Assembly: GCA_019694855.1 (NCBI GenBank)
Contig: JAIBBD010000018.1
Span: 1-37,136 of the forward strand
Source: Dehalococcoidia bacterium
Lineage (GTDB): Bacteria; Chloroflexota; Dehalococcoidia; UBA2979
Direction: 5' to 3'
Length of the DNA stretch: 37,136 bases
Shown here in pieces: positions 10,651-31,557 of the stretch. Position numbers and translations under genes: made by a program. Within the stretch, counting starts at the first letter, position 1, and each line of letters starts with the position of its first letter. Below the pieces are notes generated by a model. The model worked only from the letters and a program-made list of their open reading frames with translations. It ran no database searches and was not told the DNA's origin.

Positions 10651-10668
10651 CGATGACTTGTTGAGGCG

Positions 10669-13500: not shown

Positions 13501-13527
13501 TTAGCACTCTCGCGTCGAGAGTGCTAA
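13501..13527. promoter_or_regulatory. CIRCE operator (HrcA binding site)
   Basis: TTAGCACTC (13501-13509), a 9-nt spacer and GAGTGCTAA (13519-13527): an exact match to the CIRCE consensus. HrcA binds this element to repress chaperone operons, with GroE or DnaK activity modulating it. It precedes the hrcA ribosome binding site, so it lies in the 5' untranslated region. Confidence 0.98.
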
Positions 13528-13541
13528 TGGAGGAAACCAGG

Positions 13542-14558
13542 GTGCTGACCCGGCGTCGAACCGAGATTCTCGGGCTGGTCGTCCATCAGTACATCGACAC
13601 TGCCGCACCGGTGAGTTCGCGTGCGCTGGTGTCGCGACATGGCCTCAGCATCTCCACGGCCACCATCCGTAACGAGCTGGCGAAGCTCGAGGAAGACGGC
13701 TACATCGCGCAGCCGCACACCTCGGCGGGGCGCGTCCCGCTGGATCGCGGGTACCGCCTGTACGTCGAGGAGCTCATGGCAGAGGAGCCCATCGGTGTCG
13801 ATGAGCAGCGCACGATCGAGCACCAGTTCCACCAGGCCCCGGCGCACCTCGAGGAGTGGCTGAGCCTTGCCGCGCATGTGCTCGCGACGGCCGTCTCCAA
13901 TGTCGCCGTGATCACGCGGCCCACGAACCGCGTCGCGCAGCTGCGGCAGGTGCAGTTGGTGCACCTCCACGACGAGACTGCGCTGCTGGTCGCCGTGATG
14001 GATGACGGGCGCGTGCAGCAGCGCATGGTGCTGTTGAGCCGCAGCGAGGACCAGGACGGGCTCACGGCGCGGGCGATGCGGCTCAATGCGCGGATCGCGA
14101 ATGCCGAGGCCGCGACCGTGCGCGCCGTGGCCGAGGAACTGACCGACGAGGACGACCGCCGGCTCGCTGAAGTGGCGGCGGAGCTCATCGATGAGCATCG
14201 CGTCGCCGGTGAGACATACCTCGAGGGGCTGCGCTCGGCGCTCGAGCAGCCGGAGTTCGCGTCGGCGGAGCGGATGTTGGACGCGGTGCGCCACCTGCAG
14301 GCATACGAGCTGCTGCGCGCGCTGCCCACGCCCGAGGAGCTTCGGCCCGGCGCGACTCGAGTCATGATCGGCAGCGAGAACAGTGACGACTGGATGCACG
14401 AGTGGAGCGTGGTGACGTCCTCGTTCGGCGACTATAACGGGTCGCTTGGGACGATCGCCGTGTTGGGGCCCACCCGCATGCGGTACGGATACACCATTCC
14501 GCGCGTCCGATACGTAGCTTCGCTGGTGACAGCACTGCTGCAAGGGATGAGCCGGTAA
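13542..14558 (+). CDS. hrcA: Heat-inducible transcription repressor HrcA
   Basis: 338 residues. Represses its own operon, and probably groE elsewhere, by binding CIRCE. The N-terminus is a winged helix (RRRTEILGLVVHQYIDTAAPVSSRAL, then STATIRNELAKLEEDGYI and HTSAGRVPLDRGYR), the strongest HrcA signature. A GAF-like middle domain and the dimerisation region follow. The C-terminal segment with GTIAVLGPTRMRYGYTIPRV is also typical. The GTG at 13542 is chosen because GGAGG at 13529-13533 lies 8 nt before it; ATG 13527 or GTG 13521 would put the start within the operator. First gene of the chaperone operon, 27 bp before grpE. Confidence 0.97.
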   Translation: MLTRRRTEILGLVVHQYIDTAAPVSSRALVSRHGLSISTATIRNELAKLEEDGYIAQPHTSAGRVPLDRGYRLYVEELMAEEPIGVDEQRTIEHQFHQAPAHLEEWLSLAAHVLATAVSNVAVITRPTNRVAQLRQVQLVHLHDETALLVAVMDDGRVQQRMVLLSRSEDQDGLTARAMRLNARIANAEAATVRAVAEELTDEDDRRLAEVAAELIDEHRVAGETYLEGLRSALEQPEFASAERMLDAVRHLQAYELLRALPTPEELRPGATRVMIGSENSDDWMHEWSVVTSSFGDYNGSLGTIAVLGPTRMRYGYTIPRVRYVASLVTALLQGMSR

Positions 14559-14585
14559 CGCCGGCCCCCGCTGACGAGGAAACGC

Positions 14586-15158
14586 ATGACGAATGAACCC
14601 ACGGACAGCATGCCGCCGGACGCGATCGGCGCGACAGCCGGAGCGCCCGAAGACGATGTCGACGCGCTGAGGGCGGAGCTGGAGGAAGCACGCGGCAAGT
14701 ACATGCGGGCAGCTGCGGACTATCAGAACCTGCGCCGCCGATCAGAGGAGGAGCGCAAGGAATACGCGCGCTACACGCTCGCGGCGCTCGTGATCAACTA
14801 CCTGCCGGTGCTCGACGACCTCGACCGGGCACTCGAGTCCGTGCACGAGGAGATCGCCGAGCACCAATGGGTCGAGGGCGTGCGTATGGTGGAGCGGAAG
14901 TTCCGCGCGGTCCTCGAGGCGAGCGGCGTTCGCGAGATCGGAGCGGACGGTTCCGCATTCGACCCGGCGGTACACGAGGCGATCTCGTATGCGCCGGGAC
15001 CGGCGGGTCAGGTCGTCGCGGTCGTACAACCGGGCTACACGCTGGACGGCAAAGTGGTGCGGCCCGCCCAGGTCGTCGTGGGTAGCGGCGCCGGCGGGAC
15101 CGGCGGCTTCTCGGACGGCTCGAACCAGAACGAAGCAACTACCGAGAGCGCGGAGTAG
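14586..15158 (+). CDS. grpE: Nucleotide exchange factor GrpE
   Basis: 190 residues. Dimeric co-chaperone that releases ADP from DnaK. An acidic disordered head (1-25) leads to the long coiled coil ([26 protein letters not shown]), then VLDDLDRAL and the C-terminal beta wing with [10 protein letters not shown] and [20 protein letters not shown], all family hallmarks. The tail after residue 170 is Gly/Ser-rich and not conserved. The ATG at 14586 has GAGGAAA upstream. It lies between hrcA and dnaK with short gaps (27 and 39 bp), so it is controlled by the CIRCE promoter. Confidence 0.97.
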
Positions 15159-15197
15159 ACCGCGCGCCAACCCGTTTGATCGGGAGGATGGGCAGAG

Positions 15198-17105
<1,908 letters not shown>

Positions 17106-17133
17106 CGCGGGGTGCCTCGGAGCCAGGAGACGA

Positions 17134-17166
17134 CAGGAATCCCGCCGGCAACCGGCGGGATTCCTG
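17134..17166 (+). terminator. Strong 15-bp hairpin between dnaK and dnaJ
   Basis: CAGGAATCCCGCCGG (17134-17148), loop CAA, then CCGGCGGGATTCCTG (17152-17166): a perfect 15-bp stem. It lies in the middle of an otherwise co-directional operon and has no T-run, so complete intrinsic termination is unlikely. A partial terminator, processing site or 3'-end stabiliser that keeps DnaK above DnaJ is inferred, not shown. A TAGAAT (17225-17230) just before dnaJ could be a separate -10 but lacks a -35. Confidence 0.6.
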
Positions 17167-17275
17167 CACTTCGAGGGCGCCCCGCTGGGGCGGCGGCGAA
17201 AGGCGCGTTGCCGGGGGCCGTGGGTAGAATGAAGTTTCAATGCAGACGCCCGGTGCGCCGGGCGAGGGGCCGGGC

Positions 17276-18397
17276 ATGAACGCACAGCGCGACCTGTACG
17301 AGGTGATGGGGCTCTCCCGCGACGCGTCGCAGGAGGACATCAAGCGCGCCTTCCGCAAGCTCGCGATGGAGTACCACCCCGACCGGAACAAGGAGGCCGA
17401 CGCCGAGGAGCGCTTCAAGGAGGTGGCAGCCGCTTACGACGTGCTGTCCGACCCGGAGAAGCGCAGCGCCTACGACCGCTATGGGATGGCGGGCGTGGGG
17501 GGCAACGGCAGCCAGGGGTTCCAGGGCTTCGAGGGGTTCGGTGGCTTCGGGGACATCTTCGATGCGTTCTTCCGTGGCACCGGCGCCCGCCGGGCGGGAC
17601 CGCAGCGCGGCGCCGACCTGCGTACGAGCATCACCATCGAGTTCGCCGAAGCCGTGTTCGGCATCGACCGCGAGATCGAGTACCAACGCGTCGAGCAGTG
17701 CGCGGACTGCCGCGGCTCGGGCTCGAAGCCGGGCAGCCGGCCGGCAGCATGTCCGGAGTGCCGAGGCACGGGCGAAATCCGCCGCGTGCAACAGTCGCTG
17801 TTCGGGCAGTTCGTGAACGTCGCGACCTGCGACCGCTGCGAGGGTGAGGGGCAGGTGGTCACCGATCCGTGCGGCACCTGCAAGGGGCGTGGACATCGCC
17901 GCGTCACCGTGAAGCGCACTGTGAAGATCCCCGGTGGCGTCGATGACGGCTCGCAGATCCGCATCTCCGGGGAGGGCGACGCGGGTACCCGCGGCGGTCC
18001 CTCCGGCAACCTCTACGTGGTGTTGAGGGTAAAGGCTCACAAGGAGTTCATGCGCGACGAGGACGACCTGGTCTACGAGTTGCCACTCAACGTCGCGCAG
18101 GCGGCACTCGGTGCGAGCATCGAAGTGCCGACGCTCGACGGCGACCCGGTTGCGCTGAAGGTCGAACCCGGCACCCAGCCGGGGCATGTCTTCACCGTGC
18201 GCGGCCGAGGCGTCCCGCATCTGCGTGGCTCGGGTCGCGGAGACTTACTGGTGCGCGCGAACGTCGTGACGCCGACGAAACTGAACGACGAGCAGCGCGA
18301 GCTCCTCGAACGGCTGGCTGAGTCGCTGGGGACGCCAACCGAGAACGGTGAAGGCGGGGGGCTGTTCGGCCGTATCCGCGACGTGCTGGGCGGCTGA
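17276..18397 (+). CDS. dnaJ: Chaperone protein DnaJ (Hsp40, class I)
   Basis: 373 residues. Delivers substrates to DnaK and stimulates its ATPase. The J domain carries HPD at residues 34-36. A Gly/Phe-rich linker ([16 protein letters not shown]) follows. The zinc domain has four CxxCxGxG-type repeats ([32 protein letters not shown]), so both zinc sites are complete. The two C-terminal beta domains and the dimerisation tail are present. The ATG at 17276 is chosen because GAGGGG at 17264-17269 lies 6 nt before it; the upstream ATG at 17240 has no ribosome binding site and adds 12 atypical residues. 34 bp before prmA. Confidence 0.97.
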
Positions 18398-20064: not shown

Positions 20065-21082
20065 GCCCGAATGGGGTCGTCAGCCACGTCATCGGATCGA
20101 CGTTCACGCCCCAGAGCGACAGCTCCCAGTGCAGATGCGGACCCGTGGCGAGCCCCGTCGCGCCCACGAGGCCGACGACGTCCCCGGCGGCCACCTGCTG
20201 GTCGACGGTGCTGGAGATCGCCGAGAGGTGGTGATAGCCGGTCTTCACACCGGCGCCATGGTCGACGATGACCGAGTTGCCCCGGATGGGCATCGCGCCC
20301 GTCCAGGCGACGCGTCCGGGCGCGGCCACCTGAACGGGTGTCCCGTTGTCGTTGGCGAGGTCGACGCCCGTGTGGAACGCCCCGACGGGCCCGCCGTTGA
20401 TCGATCGTCCCTGACCGAAGTAGGTCGTGATCTCGCCATTGACCGGGCGGAGAAAGAGCTTCGTCCATCGCGGCGCAGGGTCGAACTGCGCGAACTGTAC
20501 GCCTCGGATCTCTGCCTCGTGCGCGCTGGCATCGGGCGTCAGGACCGAGGACTCGGCCTCCGTCAGCGACAGGTAGTCCACCGGCCGCTCGACCGTGATG
20601 ACCGCGTAGGTCAGGTCGGCGCTCGCCAGCGTCTTACCGAAGGCATCCTTCGCGGTCCCGTGCAGCACCCCGCTTGAGAGCGGCGCGTCCAGGGGAACGC
20701 CGATGGCCAGCCAGAACGTGCCATTCGGCTGCGGCAGCATGTGGTAGGCAGTGCCCCGGAAGTCGATTGAGACGCTCGCCGCCCCGGGCGCCTGGGCGAG
20801 GATCCGGGTCGATTCCCCAATGCCGATTTGCGGAGGCGTCGCGGTGAGGGTGAGCGTCGGCGTCGTACGGGTCACGCTCGCCGACGGCGACTGCTTCGAG
20901 GGCGCGACGTTCGTGGGGCTCGTGGCGGCCACGGTTCCAACGGTCGTGCCGCCCGAGGACTCGGCGGGCGCGTCGTCGCCGCCGCACCCGATCAGCGCGG
21001 CGAGCGGGACAAGTGCGACTCCCCCCGCTGCGAGGCGCAGGAAGCGTCGGCGATGCAGCCTCGGTGAGTGGGACGGTGGCGT
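20054..21082 (-). CDS. M23 peptidase, Tat-type lipoprotein, non-canonical start
   Basis: 342 residues if ACG 21082 is the start. Residues 11-15 read RRRFL, a twin-arginine motif, followed by a hydrophobic stretch ending in LIGC (Cys33), a lipobox, so export and lipid anchoring are predicted. An Ig-like domain follows, then an M23 domain with [16 protein letters not shown] and GPHLHWEL supplying the zinc site. Likely a cell-wall endopeptidase or an activator of one. The frame has no ATG, GTG or TTG between its upstream stop (near 21121) and GTG 20932, which lies after the lipobox and would remove the signal. AGGAGG at 21088-21093 is 5 nt before ACG; CTG 21058 is the alternative. Confidence 0.78.
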
Positions 21083-21087
21083 GGCGT

Positions 21088-21093
21088 CCTCCT
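21088..21093 (-). promoter_or_regulatory. Strong ribosome binding site preceding an ACG codon
   Basis: AGGAGG on the minus strand, a complete Shine-Dalgarno match, 5 nt before an in-frame ACG (21082). No canonical start codon lies within reach in this frame. The site is the main evidence that translation of the Tat-M23 lipoprotein begins here. Confidence 0.55.
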
Positions 21094-21186
21094 GGAGTGG
21101 GCGCTGATTCGGGACGGAGGTTCAGGCGCGAATCGATGGTACGCCGCGCGATGGCAAGGATCCGAGTGACCCGCACCGAGCGTTGT

Positions 21187-21192
21187 TATACT
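21187..21192 (+). promoter_or_regulatory. Candidate -10 element for the first moxR locus
   Basis: TATACT, five of six consensus matches, 85 bp before the moxR start. A GTGACC at 21166-21171 could act as -35 but with only 15 nt of spacing. Predicted leader about 78 nt. Confidence 0.4.
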
Positions 21193-21276
21193 GAATTGCC
21201 TCCTGTTGAGGTGACTCCCACATCTCGAAATGACGCCCGCGCTGTGGAGCACAGACGCGCACCCCCGGGAGGGCCC

Positions 21277-22233
21277 GTGGAAGACCCCCGCATCGTCGCC
21301 GACCGTATTCTGGCCAACGTCGACCGGGTGATCATCGGCAAGGCGCTCGAGACGCGGCTGGCGCTCGTTTGCCTCATGTCGCGGGGCCACCTGCTGATCG
21401 AGGATGTCCCAGGCGTGGGTAAGACCATGCTGGCGCGCGCGCTGGCGCGCTCGGCGGGCTGCACGTTCTCGCGCATCCAGTTCACGCCGGACCTGCTGCC
21501 CTCGGACGTGACCGGCGTCTCCGTCTTCAACCAGGGGACGCGTGACTTCGAGTTCCGGCCGGGGCCGATCATGGCTCAGATCGTGCTGACCGATGAGATC
21601 AACCGCGCCACGCCAAAGACGCAGTCGGCGCTCCTCGAGGCGATGGAGGAGCGGCAGGTCACGGTGGACGGTGTGACGCACCGGACGCCGGACCCGTTCA
21701 TGGTCATGGCGACGCAGAACCCGATCGAGTACGAAGGCACGTTCCCGCTGCCCGAGGCGCAGCTCGACCGCTTCCTGATGCGCGTACACCTCGGTTACCC
21801 CTCGGCGACCGACGAGGTGTTGGTGATGGACGCGCAGCAGAGCGGGCACCCGATCGAGTCGCTCGACCAGGTGACCTCGGCTGACGAGGTGCTCGAGTTA
21901 CAGCAGGCGGTGCGGGGCATCTACATCGACCCGCTGATCAAGCAGTACATCGTGACGCTGGTGGGTGCGACGCGGGAGCACGAGAGCGTGTACCTCGGGG
22001 CGTCGCCGCGTGGGTCGCTGGCGTTGATGCGCGCGACGCAGGCCTATGCGCTTCTCGATGGTCGCGACTTCGTGCAACCCGACGATGTGAAGGCGCTGGC
22101 GTACACCACGCTGGGCCACCGCGTGATTGTCAGCCCGGGCGCCCGAGTCCGCGGGATCGATAGCAAGGAAGTGGTCGAAGAGTGCCTCGAGCGTGTGCCC
22201 GTGCCCGGGGCGCGCGCCCGCGGCAGTGCCTGA
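21277..22233 (+). CDS. MoxR-family AAA+ ATPase (locus 1)
   Basis: 318 residues. MoxR ATPases act as chaperone-like remodelers, usually with VWA- and DUF58-domain partners. Walker A is DVPGVGKT (Lys49, Thr50), Walker B is [20 protein letters not shown], the sensor region is [23 protein letters not shown], and the lid domain contains [20 protein letters not shown]. All are intact. The start is GTG 21277, with GGGAGG upstream at short spacing; an earlier in-frame GTG at 21244 has no ribosome binding site. It is followed after 7 bp by the DUF58 gene, so the two are one transcript. It differs clearly from the MoxR of the facing locus, which has GLAKT in Walker A. Confidence 0.93.
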
Positions 22234-22240
22234 GCGGCCC

Positions 22241-23500
22241 ATGCGACGCTCGATCGTCTGGCTGCGGCGCTATCCAAACGTTGCCTGGGCGCTGTTCGTG
22301 GCGCTCGCGTGCTTCGTGATCGGGTTCGCCACCGGGTTCTGGCTGCTGTTCCGCCTCGCCTACGTGATCCTGCTGGTCATCCCGCTCGTGTACCTGTGGA
22401 CGCGTTCGATGATCAACGCGCTCGAGGTCGAGGTGCACCGCTACACCCAGCGGGTGTCGCAGGGTCAGTCGCTCGACGGACGCATCGTCCTTACCTCGAC
22501 GTCTCGCATTCCGAAGGTGTGGCTCGAGGTGCGCGACGAGGCGAACGTGCCGGGTCACATGCCCCACCGCGTCATCACACTGGGGGCTCGCGGTTCGCAG
22601 TCGTGGCACTACGAGACGCCCACCTTGCGTCGAGGGGTGTACCAGCTCGGCCCGGTCGTCGTGACCGCGAGCGACCCGTTTGGTTTCTTCCGCTTCACGC
22701 GGACGTTCGGCGGGACGACGCCCGTCCTCGTCTATCCCAGCGCGCCGGAGCTGCCCAACTTCTATATCCCGCCGGCCAACCTGCCAGGCGACGGCCGCTT
22801 CCGGCGCCGGACGCACAACATCACCCCGAACGTCGCCGGCTTGCGGGCATACGAGCCGGGTGACTCCTACAACCGCATCCACTGGCCGGCTACCGCGCGC
22901 ACCGGGAACCTGATGGTGAAGCTGTTCGAGCTCGACCCCGCCTCGGACATCTGGGTCGTGCTCGACCTCGAACGCGCGGTGCACGTCGGCGAGGGTGACG
23001 ACGGCACGGAGGAGGCAGCGGTCAAGATCTGCGCCTCAATTGCCCGCTACTTCCTCGCCGCCAACCGCACGGTCGGCTTCATGTCGTTCGGCGATGACCT
23101 CCGGATCAACGAGGCCGACCGCGGGGCGAACCATTACACGCGCATCCTCGAGTCGCTGGCGGTGGCACGAGCGAGCGGCGATGTGTCCCTCGCGAAGCTG
23201 CTGCTCGAGGAGTCGCGACGGTTCGGGCGGCATACGACGGTCGTCGCCATCACGCCCTCCACCGCCTCGGAGTGGCCGCTGACGCTGATGGGACTGCAGA
23301 GCCGCGGCGTGAAGGTCGCTGCCGTGCTGCTCGAAGCGGAGACGTTCGGCGCCAGCGCGAGTTCTCTCGACGTATACGGGACGCTCGCGGCCGGTGGCAT
23401 CTACACGTACACCGTGAAGAGCTCGGACGACCTCGGAAACGTGCTCGCGGCAGGCGCCGACGTCGCGGCGCTCGACCCGCGCTCCGGAGGCCGTCGATGA
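22241..23500 (+). CDS. DUF58 membrane protein (locus 1)
   Basis: 419 residues. Two adjacent membrane segments at about 12-55 (VAWALFVALACFVIGFATG and FRLAYVILLVIPLVYLW) are followed by a beta-rich region (LEVRDEANVPGH, TLRRGVYQLGPVVVTASDPFGFF). The DUF58 signature comes next: LRAYEPGDSYNRIHWPATARTGNLMVKLFE. The C-terminal part resembles a von Willebrand A fold (IWVVLDLERAV). DUF58 proteins are regular partners of MoxR and transglutaminase-like proteins; biochemical role unknown, probably assembly at the membrane. The stop overlaps the next gene by 4 bp (ATGA), indicating translational coupling. Confidence 0.88.
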   Translation: MRRSIVWLRRYPNVAWALFVALACFVIGFATGFWLLFRLAYVILLVIPLVYLWTRSMINALEVEVHRYTQRVSQGQSLDGRIVLTSTSRIPKVWLEVRDEANVPGHMPHRVITLGARGSQSWHYETPTLRRGVYQLGPVVVTASDPFGFFRFTRTFGGTTPVLVYPSAPELPNFYIPPANLPGDGRFRRRTHNITPNVAGLRAYEPGDSYNRIHWPATARTGNLMVKLFELDPASDIWVVLDLERAVHVGEGDDGTEEAAVKICASIARYFLAANRTVGFMSFGDDLRINEADRGANHYTRILESLAVARASGDVSLAKLLLEESRRFGRHTTVVAITPSTASEWPLTLMGLQSRGVKVAAVLLEAETFGASASSLDVYGTLAAGGIYTYTVKSSDDLGNVLAAGADVAALDPRSGGRR

Positions 23501-25830
23501 CGCTGCGCGCGACGTGGGACCGGCCGGCTCCTCCGATGACGCCGGCTGCCGGGCCGGGCGGCCGCCCACGATTGCCCTCGTTCCTGTCGTGGGAAGAGCT
23601 GCTGACCTTCGGGCTGATGCTCGTCGCGCTGCTGTCCGTGGTGATCTCGGTCGAGCGCGCGGACTGGGTGGCAGAGATGCCGCGGCTCACCGTTGCGGCG
23701 CTCGTGGGCCTCGTGTCGGGCTGGATCCTCGGCCGCACGCGTGCGCCGGCCTACGCCCTACACCTCGTTGGCGTGGCAATTGGCCTCGCGGTCGTTGTCG
23801 GCATGGTGATGCACACACTGCGGTTGGCGAATCCGCTCGTCGAGCACGGCGTACAGGCGCGGTGGTCCGAGTTGTGGGAGCGCATCGGCATCTGGTTCGA
23901 CCAGCTGTGGTCCGGCGATGTGTCGACCGACCCCCTGCCGTTCGTGCTCCTTGTCGTCTTTGCGGCCTGGGCGCTCGCATACATCGCGGCGTGGTCGGTG
24001 GTGCGTTGGAAGAACCCCTGGCTGGCACTGGCGCCCGGGGGGATCGCTCTGCTGACCAACATCTCGTATCTGCCGGGCCAGCCGTCGCTCGAGTTCATCG
24101 TGTTCCTGTTCGCCGGCATCCTGCTGTTCGCACGGCTGCACTTGCTGCGGACGGTGGAACGCTGGGAGGGCGAGCGCGCCGAGGCGCCCCCCTGGCTGTC
24201 GCTCGAGGTGTTGAACCTCGCGACGTGGGTCGGCGTCGGGCTGATCTTCGTCGCGTGGGTGATCCCGACGGCGAACAACTTCGGTCCGGTGGCGGGCGTG
24301 TGGGACCGGGTCGCTGGCCCGATCGCAGGCCGGGTGGATGGCGCCGGGCGGCTGTTCGTCGGCGTGAACTCAAAGCAGCCCATCGAGGCGCACACGTTTG
24401 GCACGGTGCTCCCGCTGAAAAGCAGCATCCGGCTCGACTCGGACCCGCTCTTCGCGGTGCAGACAGGCGAGAGCGTCTACCTGCGTGGCGCGACATACGA
24501 CCAGTACGGCATCAGCGGCTGGCGGCAGACGGACGTGCAGCAGCGCAAACCGGCGCCGCTGACCGTCGACGCGGCGGCGCTCGGGACGCAGCAGACCAGG
24601 GCGCAGTTCCGCGAACCTGTGCGCGTGCAGGTGCAGGTGGCCGACCCGGTCGCCGACCAGCGGTTGTTTGTGGCAGGGGACGCGCTGACGGCGGACCGCG
24701 GGGGCGAACTGCTGACCGGGCCACAGGCCGACGACGTCGTCGGCTTTAGGCCCGCGGACCGCCTGACCAACGGAGATTCCTATGTGACGGTTGGCACCCG
24801 GTCGGCGGCTACGGTCGACCGCCTCGTGACGGCGAGCCCCGACTATCCGGCCTGGGTCCGCAACCGCTACCTGCAGCTGCCGGATGACCTGCCTCAGGAG
24901 GTGCGAGAACTCGCGCGCGAGGTTGCTGGCAACGACCGTGTTCCCTACGTGATCGCCTCGAAGATCGAGCGCTACCTGCGCGACACCTACCCGTACAGTC
25001 AGAATGTGGGGAAGCGACCGCCTCTTCGCGACGCGGTGACGTACTTCCTGTTCGACGCGCAGAAGGGGTACTTCGACTATCACGCCTCCGCGATGGCGGT
25101 GATGCTGCGCTCGCTCGGCATCCCCTCGCGGCTCGCGATCGGCTTCGCGGTGGACCAGCAGGCACGCGACCCGCAGAGCGGCCTGATCACGGTGAGCGAG
25201 CAGAACTCGTGGGCGTGGACCGAGGTGTACTTCCCCGGCTACGGATGGGTGGAGTTCAACCCAACCCCCGGTCTGGGCGCGGTCGTGCGGGCGGCAGACG
25301 ACTCGCAGTTCCTCGACCCGACGACCGGCCTGCCCTTCGAGGACCCGACTCTGACCGTGGACCCCGCGTTGCTGCCACCCGAGCTACAGCCCGGCGCGCA
25401 GTCCTCGCCGCTCGCGGAAACGCCGGCCGCCGACGGAACCACGCTCGCGGCGCGGTGGTTCACGTGGCTGCTGCTGGGGGCGGCCGTCCTCGTGGTCGCG
25501 GCAGGCGCGGGCCGCTTCGCATGGGCCTCGGCGTTCCGAGGTCTGAGTCCGGCCGGTAAGCGCTGGGCGAAGCTCCAGACGCTCTCTGGCTGGGCAGGCC
25601 TTCAGCCGGGCGCGCAACAGACCCCGCACGAGACCGCGGCGCTGCTTTCCGCCTCGCTGCGGCCGCCGGTCGACGTGCAGCCACTCGCGCGGTCGTACGT
25701 CGCAGAGCGCTACGGCCGTCCGGGCGCAGACGTTGCGGGCGAGGATGCGGATGGATTGGACGCGCTGTACGCGGCCGCCCGCAAGCGCCTCACGAGGCGT
25801 ATCGTCCGGCGCTTCCTGCCGTTCGTGTAG
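23497..25830 (+). CDS. Transglutaminase-fold membrane protein lacking the catalytic triad
   Basis: 777 residues with the TgpA-like plan: several N-terminal membrane helices (about residues 28-280), a large extracytoplasmic region with a transglutaminase-like domain (about 450-600), one C-terminal membrane helix near 655-680 and a DUF4129-type cytoplasmic tail. The transglutaminase core aligns well (AVTYFLF, ASAMAVMLRSLGIPSRLAIGF, TEVYFPGYGWVEF). The catalytic Cys position is Phe526 (GYFDYH), the His position is Trp572 (NSWAWTEV) and the Asp position is Asn588 (FNPTPG). Classical transglutaminase or protease chemistry is therefore not expected. The ATG at 23497 overlaps the DUF58 stop. It ends 9 bp from the convergent BatB/C-like gene. 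Confidence 0.88.
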   Translation: MTLRATWDRPAPPMTPAAGPGGRPRLPSFLSWEELLTFGLMLVALLSVVISVERADWVAEMPRLTVAALVGLVSGWILGRTRAPAYALHLVGVAIGLAVVVGMVMHTLRLANPLVEHGVQARWSELWERIGIWFDQLWSGDVSTDPLPFVLLVVFAAWALAYIAAWSVVRWKNPWLALAPGGIALLTNISYLPGQPSLEFIVFLFAGILLFARLHLLRTVERWEGERAEAPPWLSLEVLNLATWVGVGLIFVAWVIPTANNFGPVAGVWDRVAGPIAGRVDGAGRLFVGVNSKQPIEAHTFGTVLPLKSSIRLDSDPLFAVQTGESVYLRGATYDQYGISGWRQTDVQQRKPAPLTVDAAALGTQQTRAQFREPVRVQVQVADPVADQRLFVAGDALTADRGGELLTGPQADDVVGFRPADRLTNGDSYVTVGTRSAATVDRLVTASPDYPAWVRNRYLQLPDDLPQEVRELAREVAGNDRVPYVIASKIERYLRDTYPYSQNVGKRPPLRDAVTYFLFDAQKGYFDYHASAMAVMLRSLGIPSRLAIGFAVDQQARDPQSGLITVSEQNSWAWTEVYFPGYGWVEFNPTPGLGAVVRAADDSQFLDPTTGLPFEDPTLTVDPALLPPELQPGAQSSPLAETPAADGTTLAARWFTWLLLGAAVLVVAAGAGRFAWASAFRGLSPAGKRWAKLQTLSGWAGLQPGAQQTPHETAALLSASLRPPVDVQPLARSYVAERYGRPGADVAGEDADGLDALYAAARKRLTRRIVRRFLPFV

Positions 25831-25839
25831 CGTTGTGGC

Positions 25840-27657
25840 CTAGCGGTCCGGCAGGCCGTTTCCCGCCGGCGCTCGCGGTTGCAGGTTCGACGCTTCGCTC
25901 TCGCGTCGCAGTCGGTCGAGGAAGGCGAGCGCCTCCTCGAGGCTAACGCCGTTGGCGAGCAGATCGTTCAGCTGGTCGGACAGCGACTCCGCGCCCTGGC
26001 CCGGTTGTGTCGGCTGGTTGGGCTGTCCGGCGGCGCCCGGGGTCGCGGCCCCCTGCGGAGTTGCCGTTGCTCCGGGCTGGCCGGGACCCGGTGTGGGCGA
26101 ACCGCCAGGCTGACCTGCTCCCGCGGTGGGCGTCGCTCCCGGCGGACCGCCGTCCTGGGGCGTCGGCGTCGGGTTCGCGCCGGGTGAGGGACTGGCGGGC
26201 TGCTGACCGGGTGGCGTGAGCAGGTCGAGCACGACCTCGAGGTTGTGCCGGGCATCGAGGTCGCCTGGGTCACGCAGCAACACTTCGATGTACGCGTTGC
26301 GCGCGTCCTCCAGCACGTTCTGCGAGAAGGCGTGGTTCCCGCTCGCATAGAGCGCGCGTGCCGCCGTCGTCGTCGCGCCCGTGCGGTCGGCAAGGCGGGC
26401 GGCGGCGCGCGAGGCGGTCTGGGCCTCCTCGTACCGCTGCAGCCGGTTCAGCGTGTTGCCGATGTTGTAGTCGACGATCGGGTTGCCGGGCGCCAGATCC
26501 TTCGCGGACTGGTAGGCGGCGAGCGCGTCATCGTAGCGACCGGCGTCGTAGGCCGCATTGCCCTCGGACACCTTGCGGTAGGCAGCAGTGCCGCCGCAGC
26601 CCGCGAGCAGGAGCGCCACCAGCAGTGATCCCGTCAGGGCGATGGTGCGGGCACCCGGCAGTCCGGCTGCCAGCGGCATCTTCGCGCGCTGGCCCGTCGG
26701 GATCAGCGACTGGATGACGAGCAGCACTAGGGCCGCTCCGAGGAACCACTGGAAGCGTTCGATAGGGATGCGCTGCGAGCCTTCGTCGAACGCGGACTGC
26801 TCCAGCCGCGCGAACTCGACGGCGAGGCCCGCGATGTTCTGCAGCTCGCGCGTGCCGCCACCGGTCTGCTCGGCGATGTGCGCGAGGGTCGTGCGGTCAG
26901 CGCGACTCAACGCGTTTTCGTCGCCCGGAGTGGCGGGCGGCCGGGCGCTCGAGGTGCGCGCCGGCACGGCCGCTCCCGCCTCGGTGCCGACCGCGACGGT
27001 GTAGACGCGGACGCCGCGGTCGCGAGCGGCGGCGATCGCGGCGTCGAGGTTGGACCCGAGGTTCTCGCCGTCGGAGAGCAGCACGATCGCCTGGCTGTTC
27101 GCGCGGTCCGGCACATCGAGGAGTGTCAGCGACGTCTGGATCGCCTTCGCGAAGTCCGTGCCGGGCTCGACCAGCGCGCCCTCGAGCTGTGCCCGTTCGA
27201 CGAGGAATGACACCGCGCCCAGATCGAGCGTAAGGGGCGAGCGCGCGAAGGCGCTCCCGCCGAAGGTCACGAGGCCGACGCGGTCACCTCGCAGGTGGGC
27301 CAGCATGTCGTCGAGGCCCGCTGCGGCAGCGTTCGAACGCGACGGCTGCACATCCGTCGCGGTCATCGATCGCGACACGTCGAGCGCGATGACGACGTCA
27401 ATGCCGCGACGGGTGACGGCGCCCTCTGCGCCTCCCCATTGCGGGCGCGCGATCGCGACTGCGACCAGGGCGACGGCCGCGAAGAGCAGCCCCGCCCGGA
27501 GCTGCGCGCGCTGTGGGCTCAGGCCGCGCCGCAGCGAGGCAGATCCGCCATACACGGCGGCGCTGGCGAGGCTTCTGCGGCGCGTGTACCACCAGGCGGT
27601 TACGAGGGGCAGCAACGCGAGCAGCGCCAGCAGTGCGAGCGGCTGTCCGAGGCTCAC
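25840..27657 (-). CDS. Fused BatB/BatC-like VWA and TPR membrane protein
   Basis: 605 residues. The N-terminus has two membrane helices (about 5-22 and 54-70), then a von Willebrand A domain with an intact MIDAS motif DVSRS (Asp93, Ser95, Ser97) and LLSDGEN. A third helix lies at about 303-320. A second part then begins with a lipobox-like LLLAGC (Cys354) and continues with TPR-like repeats (about 360-480) and a long Pro/Gly/Thr-rich low-complexity stretch. In many Bat (aerotolerance) operons these halves are separate proteins, BatB and BatC. The GTG at 27657 overlaps the upstream stop (GTGA). Last gene of the minus-strand MoxR operon. Function: probably part of a periplasm-facing VWA complex. 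Confidence 0.85.
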   Translation of the reverse strand: MSLGQPLALLALLALLPLVTAWWYTRRRSLASAAVYGGSASLRRGLSPQRAQLRAGLLFAAVALVAVAIARPQWGGAEGAVTRRGIDVVIALDVSRSMTATDVQPSRSNAAAAGLDDMLAHLRGDRVGLVTFGGSAFARSPLTLDLGAVSFLVERAQLEGALVEPGTDFAKAIQTSLTLLDVPDRANSQAIVLLSDGENLGSNLDAAIAAARDRGVRVYTVAVGTEAGAAVPARTSSARPPATPGDENALSRADRTTLAHIAEQTGGGTRELQNIAGLAVEFARLEQSAFDEGSQRIPIERFQWFLGAALVLLVIQSLIPTGQRAKMPLAAGLPGARTIALTGSLLVALLLAGCGGTAAYRKVSEGNAAYDAGRYDDALAAYQSAKDLAPGNPIVDYNIGNTLNRLQRYEEAQTASRAAARLADRTGATTTAARALYASGNHAFSQNVLEDARNAYIEVLLRDPGDLDARHNLEVVLDLLTPPGQQPASPSPGANPTPTPQDGGPPGATPTAGAGQPGGSPTPGPGQPGATATPQGAATPGAAGQPNQPTQPGQGAESLSDQLNDLLANGVSLEEALAFLDRLRRESEASNLQPRAPAGNGLPDR

Positions 27658-28613
27658 GGGAACCTCCGCAGCAGCGTGGCCCGCAGCGCCGCCTCGCTGA
27701 TCAGCAGCGCGAGCGCGGCGGCGGCCAGCCAGGGTGCGAACTCCTCGTAGCGGGTGAACGTGCGCTCGGCGACGCGGCTCCGTTCGAGCGCGCCGATCTC
27801 GTCGTACGCCGCGGCCAGCTCCTGCTGCGTCGATGCGTCGTGGTAGGCGCCTTCGGTGTCGGAGGCGATACGGCGGAGCATCGTCTCGTCGACTTCGCCG
27901 GAGCCTCGACGGCTGGTGAAGCCGATCGTGTAGACGCGCACGCCGAGCGCTTTCGCGAGCTGCGCCGCCTGCACGGGCTCGATGTCCCCCGCGTTGTTCT
28001 GGCCGTCCGTCAGCAGCACGACGATGCGGCTGTGCGCCTCGGAGTCGCGCAGGAGGTTGAGCGCCTCGGAGAGCCCGAGTCCGATGGCCGTACCGTCCGG
28101 CAGCAGACCGCTCTCGGTGTCGTGGACTGTGCGTTTGAGCGCAGCGAGGTCGAGTGTGAGCGGCGAGAGCACGAGCGAGCGGCCCTGGAAGATGACAAAC
28201 CCAGCCCGGTCGCCGCGCAGCGTGTCGACGAACTGGGCGATCACGTCCTTGGCGGCCTCGATGCGCGGCGGGCCGATGCCGCCGCCTGAGGGCTGGGTGC
28301 GCTCCGCCATCGAGCCGGAGACGTCGAGTGCGAGGACGATGTCAATGCCCTCCTCGGGGATGGACGTGACTGCCAGGCCGCGCTGCGGACGGGCGAGTGC
28401 GACGACGATCAACGCGATGGCGGCGACGCGGAGTGCGGCAGGCAACCAGCGCAGCCGGATGCGCCAGCTCGACTGGTCCCGGGCCACCGTCGCGAGCACG
28501 CCGAGGTCGGCGACCGCCAGCGCGGGATGAGCTGCGGGGCGGCGCCACTGCCAGAACGGGATCAGCGCCGCGAGCGGCAGGAGCAACAGGAGCCAGGGCG
28601 TACCGAAGCTCAC
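27654..28613 (-). CDS. BatA-like VWA-domain membrane protein
   Basis: 319 residues. The N-terminal helix (WLLLLLPLAALIPFWQW) and a second helix near 63-80 (LRVAAIALIVVALARPQ) precede a von Willebrand A domain with the MIDAS motif DVSGS in IVLALDVSGSM and VVLLTDGQNNAG. A C-terminal helix (PWLAAAALALLISEAAL) follows, so the VWA domain most likely faces away from the cytoplasm. This is the BatA architecture. The GTG at 28613 overlaps the stop of the BatD-like gene (GTGA), and the 3' end overlaps the next gene the same way, giving a fully coupled chain. VWA domains bind protein ligands through a metal ion, here probably within the MoxR complex. Confidence 0.88.
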   Translation of the reverse strand: MSFGTPWLLLLLPLAALIPFWQWRRPAAHPALAVADLGVLATVARDQSSWRIRLRWLPAALRVAAIALIVVALARPQRGLAVTSIPEEGIDIVLALDVSGSMAERTQPSGGGIGPPRIEAAKDVIAQFVDTLRGDRAGFVIFQGRSLVLSPLTLDLAALKRTVHDTESGLLPDGTAIGLGLSEALNLLRDSEAHSRIVVLLTDGQNNAGDIEPVQAAQLAKALGVRVYTIGFTSRRGSGEVDETMLRRIASDTEGAYHDASTQQELAAAYDEIGALERSRVAERTFTRYEEFAPWLAAAALALLISEAALRATLLRRFP

Positions 28614-29575
28614 GGGAGTGCCTCGGCAGAGGCCGGCTCGGCTTGCGGACGCGACAGCTCGATGATCTCGAAGGCGACCGTGAGGTCGTGATCCGCGGAG
28701 GCGGGGTCGGGCCGCCGCCCGGCGTAGACCGCGGCGTCGCAACGGTCGAGGAGGCCCCCGACGAGGCGGGCCTGCCAGCGTTCGACGCCCTGGCCGGTCA
28801 TGCGACGCTCGAGCTCCGGGGTTGTCAGCGCAGTGGCCCGAAACGCAAAGCGCTCCTCGAGGTAGCCGCGAACGACGCCGGAGATGGTCCCGTAGTACGC
28901 GTCGTAGTCGCCGGCCGCGAGCGGATGAGCAGCGGCCATGGTCTCAAGACGTTTTCGCGCGGCGTCCTCCATCGTGAGCGCCGGCTCGGGAGCGGCCACG
29001 CGGATCGCTGTGGGCCGGCGATGGCGCGCCAGCAAGCCTCCCCCGACGCCAATGGCGAGCACGAGGAGCGCTCCGCCGATCGCCGCGGGCAGCTGCCACG
29101 CGACGGGCGCGCCCTCGATTGAGAGCTGTGGCTTCAGTGGCCGCAGCTCGGTGTCGCCGGGCGCCACCGTAGAGGCGACAGTGAACGCGGGCGCCTCGAC
29201 TGCCTGTTCTCCGCTCACGCCGTTGTCATCGATCCAGGTGAGGCGCATTGGTGGCAGCTGCTGCGGACCGAGGCTGAACGCGGCCACGACGAACGCAAAC
29301 TGCGTAACGGATGGTCCGCCTCGCTTGCCCGGGGTCGTCGTCGGGGGCGGCTTCTCGACGACGCGCAGGGTGCTCGAGTCCTCCGGCGGCAGGACGTCAA
29401 TCAGCACGCTGTCCGGGTGCTGCGCCGTGATCGTGATGCGGATGCGTTCGCCCAGGCCAACATCCGTCCGGTCGACGGCCGCGCGGGCGACGATCTCAGG
29501 CCGCTGCGCTGCCGCGACGGCGGGGAGCAGCGCGAGGAGCACAATCGCGACCGCGAACGGAGCGCCGCGTCTCAT
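28610..29575 (-). CDS. BatD-like exported membrane protein
   Basis: 321 residues. A clear signal peptide (FAVAIVLLALLPAVAAAQ) is followed by an extracytoplasmic beta-rich domain (VDRTDVGLGERIRITITAQ, VTQFAFVVAAFSLGPQQLPPMRL), a membrane helix at about 165-188 (LPAAIGGALLVLAIGVGGGLLA) and a helical cytoplasmic tail (YDAYYGTISGVVRGYLEERF). This matches the general plan of BatD and similar oxygen-tolerance proteins in MoxR operons; the identification rests on architecture and neighbours. The ATG at 29575 overlaps the DUF58 stop (ATGA). Exact role unknown. Confidence 0.75.
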   Translation of the reverse strand: MRRGAPFAVAIVLLALLPAVAAAQRPEIVARAAVDRTDVGLGERIRITITAQHPDSVLIDVLPPEDSSTLRVVEKPPPTTTPGKRGGPSVTQFAFVVAAFSLGPQQLPPMRLTWIDDNGVSGEQAVEAPAFTVASTVAPGDTELRPLKPQLSIEGAPVAWQLPAAIGGALLVLAIGVGGGLLARHRRPTAIRVAAPEPALTMEDAARKRLETMAAAHPLAAGDYDAYYGTISGVVRGYLEERFAFRATALTTPELERRMTGQGVERWQARLVGGLLDRCDAAVYAGRRPDPASADHDLTVAFEIIELSRPQAEPASAEALP

Positions 29576-30504
29576 CGGCGGGCCGCCTTGCCTCGGAAGT
29601 AGGCAACGAGGGGGCGCACCAGGTCCTGGTCGAGGTGCAGCGGCACCTCGTCGACGCCGGCGCTGGCGAGGGCAGCACGCCGTTCGCGCACGCGAGCCTG
29701 CGCAGCTTCCGAGTAGCGGCGGCGGAGGCCGCGGTCGCTCGTGTCGATCAGCATGCGCTCACCGCGCTCGGCATCCTCGACCTCGACCAGGCCGAGGTCG
29801 GGAAGTTCGAGGTCGAGCGGGTCGGTGAGCGTGAGCGCGAGCACCTCATGGCGGCGGGCGAGGGTACGTAACGACTGCTCGTAGCCGCGGTCGTAGAAGT
29901 CTGAGATGAGCACCACGATGGACCGACGCGGGAGCACACGCGCGAGATAGTCCGCCGCCGCGGCGATCGAGGTGCCGGGACGCGTGGGCTGGTGGTGCAG
30001 CACCTCGCGCACGATGCGCAGGACATGACGGCTGCCGTGAGCGGGGGCGACGAAGCGCTCGACGCGGTCGGTGAACGTGAGCAGACCGGCCCGGTCGTGG
30101 TGGAAGACCGCCGCGAACGAGAGCAGCGCGCACAGCTCGGCGGCCGCGCCGAGACGGCCGGCGGGCGAGCGGGCGACGAGCTGCGAAGCTGACACGTCGA
30201 CCGCGCACACCACCGACAGCTCGCGTTCCTCGACATACTCCTTCACCCAGGGCGCGCCCATGCGCGCGGTCACGTTCCAGTCGATCAGGCGTACGTCGTC
30301 GCCGACCACGTACTCGCGCGCCTCGGCGAACTCGATGCCCGAGCCTCGGAAGACGCTGCGGTAGTCGCCCATGAGCAGGGTGCTGGCGAGGCGGCGCGCG
30401 CGTATCTCGATGCGGCGGACCTGCGCGAGCAGTTCCGGGGACGTGGGTTCGGCGGCGAGGACGGATGCGGCGGCGGAGGCGTCGGCCGCGGTGACGGCCG
30501 CCAT
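29572..30504 (-). CDS. DUF58 domain protein (locus 2), soluble
   Basis: 310 residues, without membrane helices, unlike the DUF58 protein of the facing locus. The signature is complete: GDYRSVFRGSGIEFAEAREY, then VVGDDVRLIDWNVTARMG and WVKEYVEERE. The rest has a von Willebrand-like fold (VVCAVDVSASQ, IVVLISDFYDRGYE). It therefore belongs to the Bat-type DUF58 group, which works with the MoxR ATPase in the cytoplasm. The ATG at 30504 begins 2 bp after the moxR stop. Codon use is like its neighbours. Confidence 0.9.
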   Translation of the reverse strand: MAAVTAADASAAASVLAAEPTSPELLAQVRRIEIRARRLASTLLMGDYRSVFRGSGIEFAEAREYVVGDDVRLIDWNVTARMGAPWVKEYVEERELSVVCAVDVSASQLVARSPAGRLGAAAELCALLSFAAVFHHDRAGLLTFTDRVERFVAPAHGSRHVLRIVREVLHHQPTRPGTSIAAAADYLARVLPRRSIVVLISDFYDRGYEQSLRTLARRHEVLALTLTDPLDLELPDLGLVEVEDAERGERMLIDTSDRGLRRRYSEAAQARVRERRAALASAGVDEVPLHLDQDLVRPLVAYFRGKAARR

Positions 30505-30506
30505 CG

Positions 30507-31508
<1,002 letters not shown>

Positions 31509-31538
31509 GCACGACCCCCGCCGCGTGGGAGCGACAAG

Positions 31539-31557
31539 GCCGGCCACAACGGCCGGC
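31539..31557 (-). other. 7-bp hairpin in the dnaE-moxR gap
   Basis: GCCGGCC (31539-31545) and GGCCGGC (31551-31557) around a 5-nt loop. On the minus strand it lies after dnaE and before moxR. It is short and lacks a T-run, so termination of dnaE is doubtful; it could also be a 5' stabilising hairpin of the moxR transcript. Confidence 0.35.

Follow-up and report, generated by a model that had tools for sequence, protein, structure and literature searches.

Operons that combine a MoxR ATPase, a DUF58 protein and a transglutaminase occur in several phyla. In the DNA analyzed here (the window, namely the whole 37,136-nucleotide stretch of contig JAIBBD010000018.1 from a Dehalococcoidia bacterium), one such operon ends in a gene whose product lacks the Cys-His-Asp/Glu triad of an active transglutaminase and carries F526, W572 and N588 instead. 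What, then, does a transglutaminase domain do in this system once all three of its catalytic residues have been replaced? The relevant features of the window are as follows.

21013..22233, plus strand: MoxR-type AAA+ ATPase (AAA_3 + AAA_lid_2), first gene of the operon; longest open reading frame, true start uncertain
22241..23500, plus strand: DUF58 protein with hydrophobic N-terminal helices, without the DxSxS metal-site motif
23497..25830, plus strand: TgpA-type pseudo-transglutaminase gene, 777 amino acids
23584..24276, plus strand: N-terminal membrane region, residues 30-260, about seven helices, TgpA_N/DUF3488-like
24907..25263, plus strand: Transglut_core domain, residues 471-589 (Pfam E = 4.5e-22)
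25072..25074, plus strand: F526, codon TTC, opposite the catalytic Cys of TgpA
25210..25212, plus strand: W572, codon TGG, opposite the catalytic His; invariant in the F-W-N/S-W-N clade
25258..25260, plus strand: N588, codon AAC, opposite the catalytic Asp/Glu; invariant in the F-W-N/S-W-N clade
25441..25530, plus strand: C-terminal membrane helix, residues 649-678
25594..25731, plus strand: DUF4129-like tail, residues 700-745 (E = 0.0016), predicted cytoplasmic
25840..31547, minus strand: second, convergent operon of MoxR-DUF58-Bat type
25840-27657, minus strand: vWA+TPR protein of the second operon
27654-28742, minus strand: BatA-like vWA protein of the second operon
28610-29575, minus strand: 321-residue protein between DUF58 and BatA, unassigned
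29572-30504, minus strand: DUF58 protein of the second operon
30507-31547, minus strand: MoxR of the second operon

The product of 23497-25830 is a TgpA-type membrane protein and not a generic transglutaminase-like protein. The first-pass annotation had recognized the transglutaminase-like identity, which stands, and the family is now narrowed to TgpA. The domain around the replaced residues is preserved, as that annotation had also held: the Transglut_core match scores 78.8 bits against a Pfam cut-off of 23, and the domain together with the preceding beta region matches 6g49/6g4h across residues 295-597. The family sequence profile finds the solved TgpA periplasmic domain 6g49 at E = 1.3e-20, and a structure search with the predicted model (mean pLDDT 77; transglutaminase core mostly 84-97) identifies the fold as that of the TgpA periplasmic domain, with Z scores of 24.9-25.0 over 257-263 residues (for 6g49, Z 24.9, 263 of 288 residues aligned, rmsd 3.1). 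The flanking regions fall below their Pfam cut-offs, TgpA_N at 28.0 bits against 30 (with a match at E <= 0.1 in 10 of the 25 family members) and the DUF4129 tail at 18.9 bits against 24.8 (20 of 25 at E <= 0.1, the best at 2.8e-6). The layout of about seven N-terminal helices, the transglutaminase domain, one helix and the tail, compared with that of TgpA, suggests that the domain lies outside the membrane and the DUF4129-like tail inside.

In the profile alignment to 6g49, F526, W572 and N588 face the Cys, His and Asp of TgpA at sites without an adjoining gap, and all three codons lie inside 25060-25265, where the replacement of the triad had first been noticed. The 777-residue protein contains no cysteine, and none of the histidine columns in the core is conserved across the F-W-N clade, so that the triad cannot be restored by a small shift; the absent cysteines and the gap-free sites rule out misalignment or missed residues. 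W572 and N588 are among the 63 columns out of 777 that are fully conserved in the 41-row F-W-N/S-W-N set. As a control, 29 TgpA-type proteins sampled from the rest of the phylum were aligned in the same way, and 26 of them showed C-H-E/D (two others are A-H-E and one S-H-E), which argues that the replaced triad is not an alignment error, and an assembly error is ruled out by the agreement of dozens of genomes. Loss of catalysis in the domain is, on the sequence evidence, well supported. A further control, the only other transglutaminase domain of the genome (L002), keeps C-H-D in a short protein of another type, and no compensating active TgpA paralogue was found in this genome, which is 96% complete. 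A second TgpA-like gene, with Ser replacing Cys, is present in genome G008; genome G056 has two TgpA-like genes (L257, L083), one C-H-N and cut by a contig end, the other S-L-A.

The gene is the last of a MoxR-DUF58-TgpA operon, as had been proposed: its start ATG shares four bases with the DUF58 stop (ATGA, 23497-23500), and the next gene lies on the opposite strand. MoxR looks like an intact ATPase, since it carries Walker A (GVGKT) and Walker B-like (LTDEIN) motifs. Loss of the DUF58 metal site was considered as a companion of the pseudoenzyme and ruled out, since the DUF58 counterparts beside C-H-E TgpA genes in the class likewise lack DxSxS. Public genomes were scanned with the family alignment, a search that was seeded with the family itself and so returns close relatives by design, some of them from genomes already sampled. 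It gave 60 loci with readable sites, and each of them has DUF58 on the same strand directly before the TgpA-type gene; MoxR precedes DUF58 in all but four, and those four sequences end there. The 60 loci are labelled Dehalococcoidia, Chloroflexi or similar, and Cys, His and the acid are absent from the three positions in every one.

The second operon converges on the first. Its 321-residue protein, for which no Pfam or NCBIfam match was found at the thresholds used, is by position probably a BatD-like member. Of the 30 F-W-N/S-W-N loci whose downstream sequence is long enough, 26 have two MoxR-DUF58 operons tail to tail, as against none of ten F-Y-N loci. With MoxR-vWA ternary conflict defence systems in mind, seven proteins of the locus were compared with the PADLOC models of known anti-phage defence proteins and gave no match at E <= 1e-5; the bpMoxR score is far below the one for AAA_3, the general MoxR model. 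A short way upstream of the MoxR operon are heat-shock genes (13521-18397, plus strand), with hrcA at 13521, dnaK at 15198 and a dnaJ-like gene recognized by eye at 17240; M23 peptidase genes flank this cluster at 10668 (plus) and 20054 (minus).

A clade with conserved Phe/Trp/Asn in MoxR-DUF58 operons had been predicted, and it exists: the 28 family relatives with readable sites comprise 26 F-W-N and two S-W-N proteins. A survey of the class, consisting of all-transglutaminase searches of 294 class genomes plus the DNA of many matches, yields a series of TgpA-type proteins that runs from intact C-H-E/D through S-H-E, in which only Cys is lost, and A-H-N and A-L-N to fully replaced forms, namely F-Y-N, F-F-N, F-F-S, F-W-N and minor others. 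An LG+G4 tree was built from the alignment minus the triad columns, with other Chloroflexota as the root. It unites all 74 sequences that lack a working triad in a single clade (SH-aLRT 100), and no member of this clade has the triad restored. A quick mixture-model tree (LG+C20, 61 rows, triad columns again left out) likewise unites its 28 no-triad rows with SH-aLRT 100. In 72 of the 74 rows the His site carries an aromatic residue (W, Y or F), and in 71 the third site is N or S. Some members have other combinations (S-E-S, S-L-A, Y-Y-D, P-Y-S), so the wider clade does not strictly depend on these particular residues. The single clade on the rooted tree indicates that complete loss of the triad happened once and was then kept; Cys alone was lost several times.

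The domain is also under constraint. Pairwise Nei-Gojobori estimates for close clade pairs give dN/dS of 0.04-0.32 over the whole gene and 0-0.27 over the core, a range that overlaps that of relatives with an intact triad (three C-H-E pairs, 0.06-0.13 for the gene and 0.04-0.10 for the core). As read from these sequences, conserved non-catalytic residues, purifying selection and one origin together define a stable pseudoenzyme clade. The class offers a natural experiment: its catalytic residues were exchanged a single time, and strong selection has maintained the system. This suggests that part of the function of the system is independent of catalysis. The intact, Cys-only-lost and fully replaced forms, all in the same operon, provide a series for testing the purpose of each residue.

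That the same replacements are kept in dozens of relatives under strong selection points to a part that is probably non-enzymatic and binds. MoxR ATPases and their partner proteins are ATP-driven remodelling machines (NorQ/NorD, PMC9976466), which makes a binding or docking link between an extracytoplasmic client and MoxR-DUF58 the most likely role. We consider it probable that the protein is a stable extracytoplasmic binding or docking pseudo-transglutaminase of the MoxR-DUF58 system whose catalysis was lost once in a Dehalococcoidia-class ancestor. According to this model, the extracytoplasmic domain of an inner-membrane TgpA-type protein would have lost its enzymatic function a single time, in an ancestor shared by the large clade within Dehalococcoidia-class Chloroflexota; the former active-site cleft, lined by F526, W572 and W574, would hold either a peptide or a protein of the envelope or membrane; and this client would be presented, or its state reported, to the MoxR ATPase through DUF58. 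The protein may be an effector or scaffold of the MoxR-DUF58 system, as first suggested; a shared operon alone is no proof of physical coupling. More tentatively, binding an extracytoplasmic client and signalling to MoxR might be the conserved role of the domain at large, with the transglutaminase reaction dispensable for MoxR-DUF58-TgpA. If this extension, which is possible though not probable, were true, the clade that discarded the chemistry and the several Cys-to-Ser lineages would expose a client-binding role, and the critical function of TgpA in Pseudomonas could be partly non-enzymatic.

The aromatic replacements stand beside the invariant W574 and could form either an aromatic-lined cleft or a filled core. 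A purely structural role, in which the Phe/Trp pair fills the cleft, no ligand binds there and the domain is kept for folding or for assembly of a MoxR-DUF58-TgpA membrane complex, is the alternative that we take most seriously, and we judge it possible though not probable. Bulky aromatics at the Cys and His sites of most rows (65 of 74 pair Phe at 526 with Trp, Tyr or Phe at 572, and one more is Y-Y) would fit a packed core, and the membrane part and the tail are conserved as well. Against this, the wider clade does not settle on one aromatic at 572 but has W, Y or F, and several lineages carry S, A or P at 526, which is unexpected for one rigid core.

The binding reading has a narrower form, in which the domain is a receptor specifically for the stem peptides of peptidoglycan. 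murC is found over the cut-off in 61 of 65 genomes with fully replaced forms (the other four have partial or weaker matches), and M23 peptidase genes lie nearby in the window. Against this stand TgpA-type orthologues in the MoxR-DUF58 operons of class members without murC over the cut-off, among them all 18 genomes with S-H-E proteins, in which Cys is replaced by Ser and His and Glu are kept (18 of 18 without murC over the cut-off, tallied by hand from tables and uncorrected for shared ancestry). Because these orthologues persist without murC, the job of the operon needs no murein, and a stem-peptide receptor seems improbable. Of the role first proposed for the protein, the non-catalytic character is thus upheld, and peptidoglycan as its ligand is weakened. 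That catalysis was lost because peptidoglycan was lost is ruled out by the presence of murC in the pseudoenzyme clade, and intact-triad forms occur in genomes both with and without murC. In the S-H-E proteins (loci L040, L054, L055, L064, L068, L071, L072, L074, L084, L087, L098, L100, L231-L233, L235, L238 and L254), His and Glu are both retained, so a Ser-His-Glu enzyme is conceivable.

Could other residues act on a substrate through a new catalytic chemistry? The domain is strongly constrained, and it contains the invariant polar residues D512, R538, R545 and N588, with D527 nearly so. Yet the protein lacks cysteine, a conserved histidine is missing, and near the site no conserved Ser/His/acid set is evident; R538, R545 and D512 are just as conserved in C-H-E proteins, where they are non-catalytic; we regard new chemistry as very unlikely. 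Drift of a degenerating gene, to which the absence of all three catalytic residues might point, can be dismissed as the first-pass annotation had done, given open frames, dN/dS far below the value of near 1 expected of decay, replacements conserved in dozens of genomes and a conserved operon. The two findings that the first-pass annotation had named as refuting its view, a triad restored in homologues and dN/dS near 1, were both sought and did not turn up.

The closest known system is TgpA (PA2873) of Pseudomonas aeruginosa (PDB 6g49/6g4h), which has the same order of parts, namely N-terminal membrane helices, an extracytoplasmic transglutaminase domain and a C-terminal helix, and the same periplasmic fold (Z 25). 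TgpA shares its operon with PA2875 and PA2874, which we take to be MoxR and DUF58 genes, much as the gene here follows MoxR and DUF58. In contrast to the Phe-Trp-Asn protein without cysteine described here, TgpA keeps Cys-His-Asp. It acts as a transglutaminase in vitro, and the viability of P. aeruginosa depends critically on tgpA (PMC3507681). Another relevant case is RloB of the P. aeruginosa rlo operon, in which seven membrane helices carry an inactive transglutaminase domain in the periplasm (PMC12239564); its partners are an ATP-grasp protein and retropepsin-like proteases instead of MoxR-DUF58; a Pfam search with 25 family members, without profile-profile comparison, gave no match at E <= 0.1 to the RloB-type family of inactive transglutaminases with seven transmembrane helices. 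Inactive transglutaminase domains have been proposed to bind peptides and occur in polymorphic toxins (PMC3482391) and also in eukaryotes (PMC10318531). Erythrocyte protein 4.2 and Rad4/XPC reuse transglutaminase folds as scaffolds without catalysis, and the corresponding structures are matched by our predicted model (8csw/7uzs, Z about 8; 6uin, Z 5.6), but both are eukaryotic, share no membrane part with the protein studied here and have an unrelated domain make-up. The bifidobacterial PFNA operon, which encodes an AAA-ATPase, DUF58, a transglutaminase, Pkb2 and FN3 (PMC12067865), resembles our locus in bringing a MoxR-type ATPase, DUF58 and a transglutaminase together, and differs in that its partners include a Ser/Thr kinase and an FN3 protein. 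In the open-licence literature we found no paper that combines Dehalococcoidia and transglutaminase, and no description of TgpA-type pseudoenzymes, whether from MoxR-DUF58 operons or from this class. Inactive transglutaminases are already known in RloB, protein 4.2 and Rad4; within that literature, the TgpA-type form in a MoxR-DUF58 operon is new.
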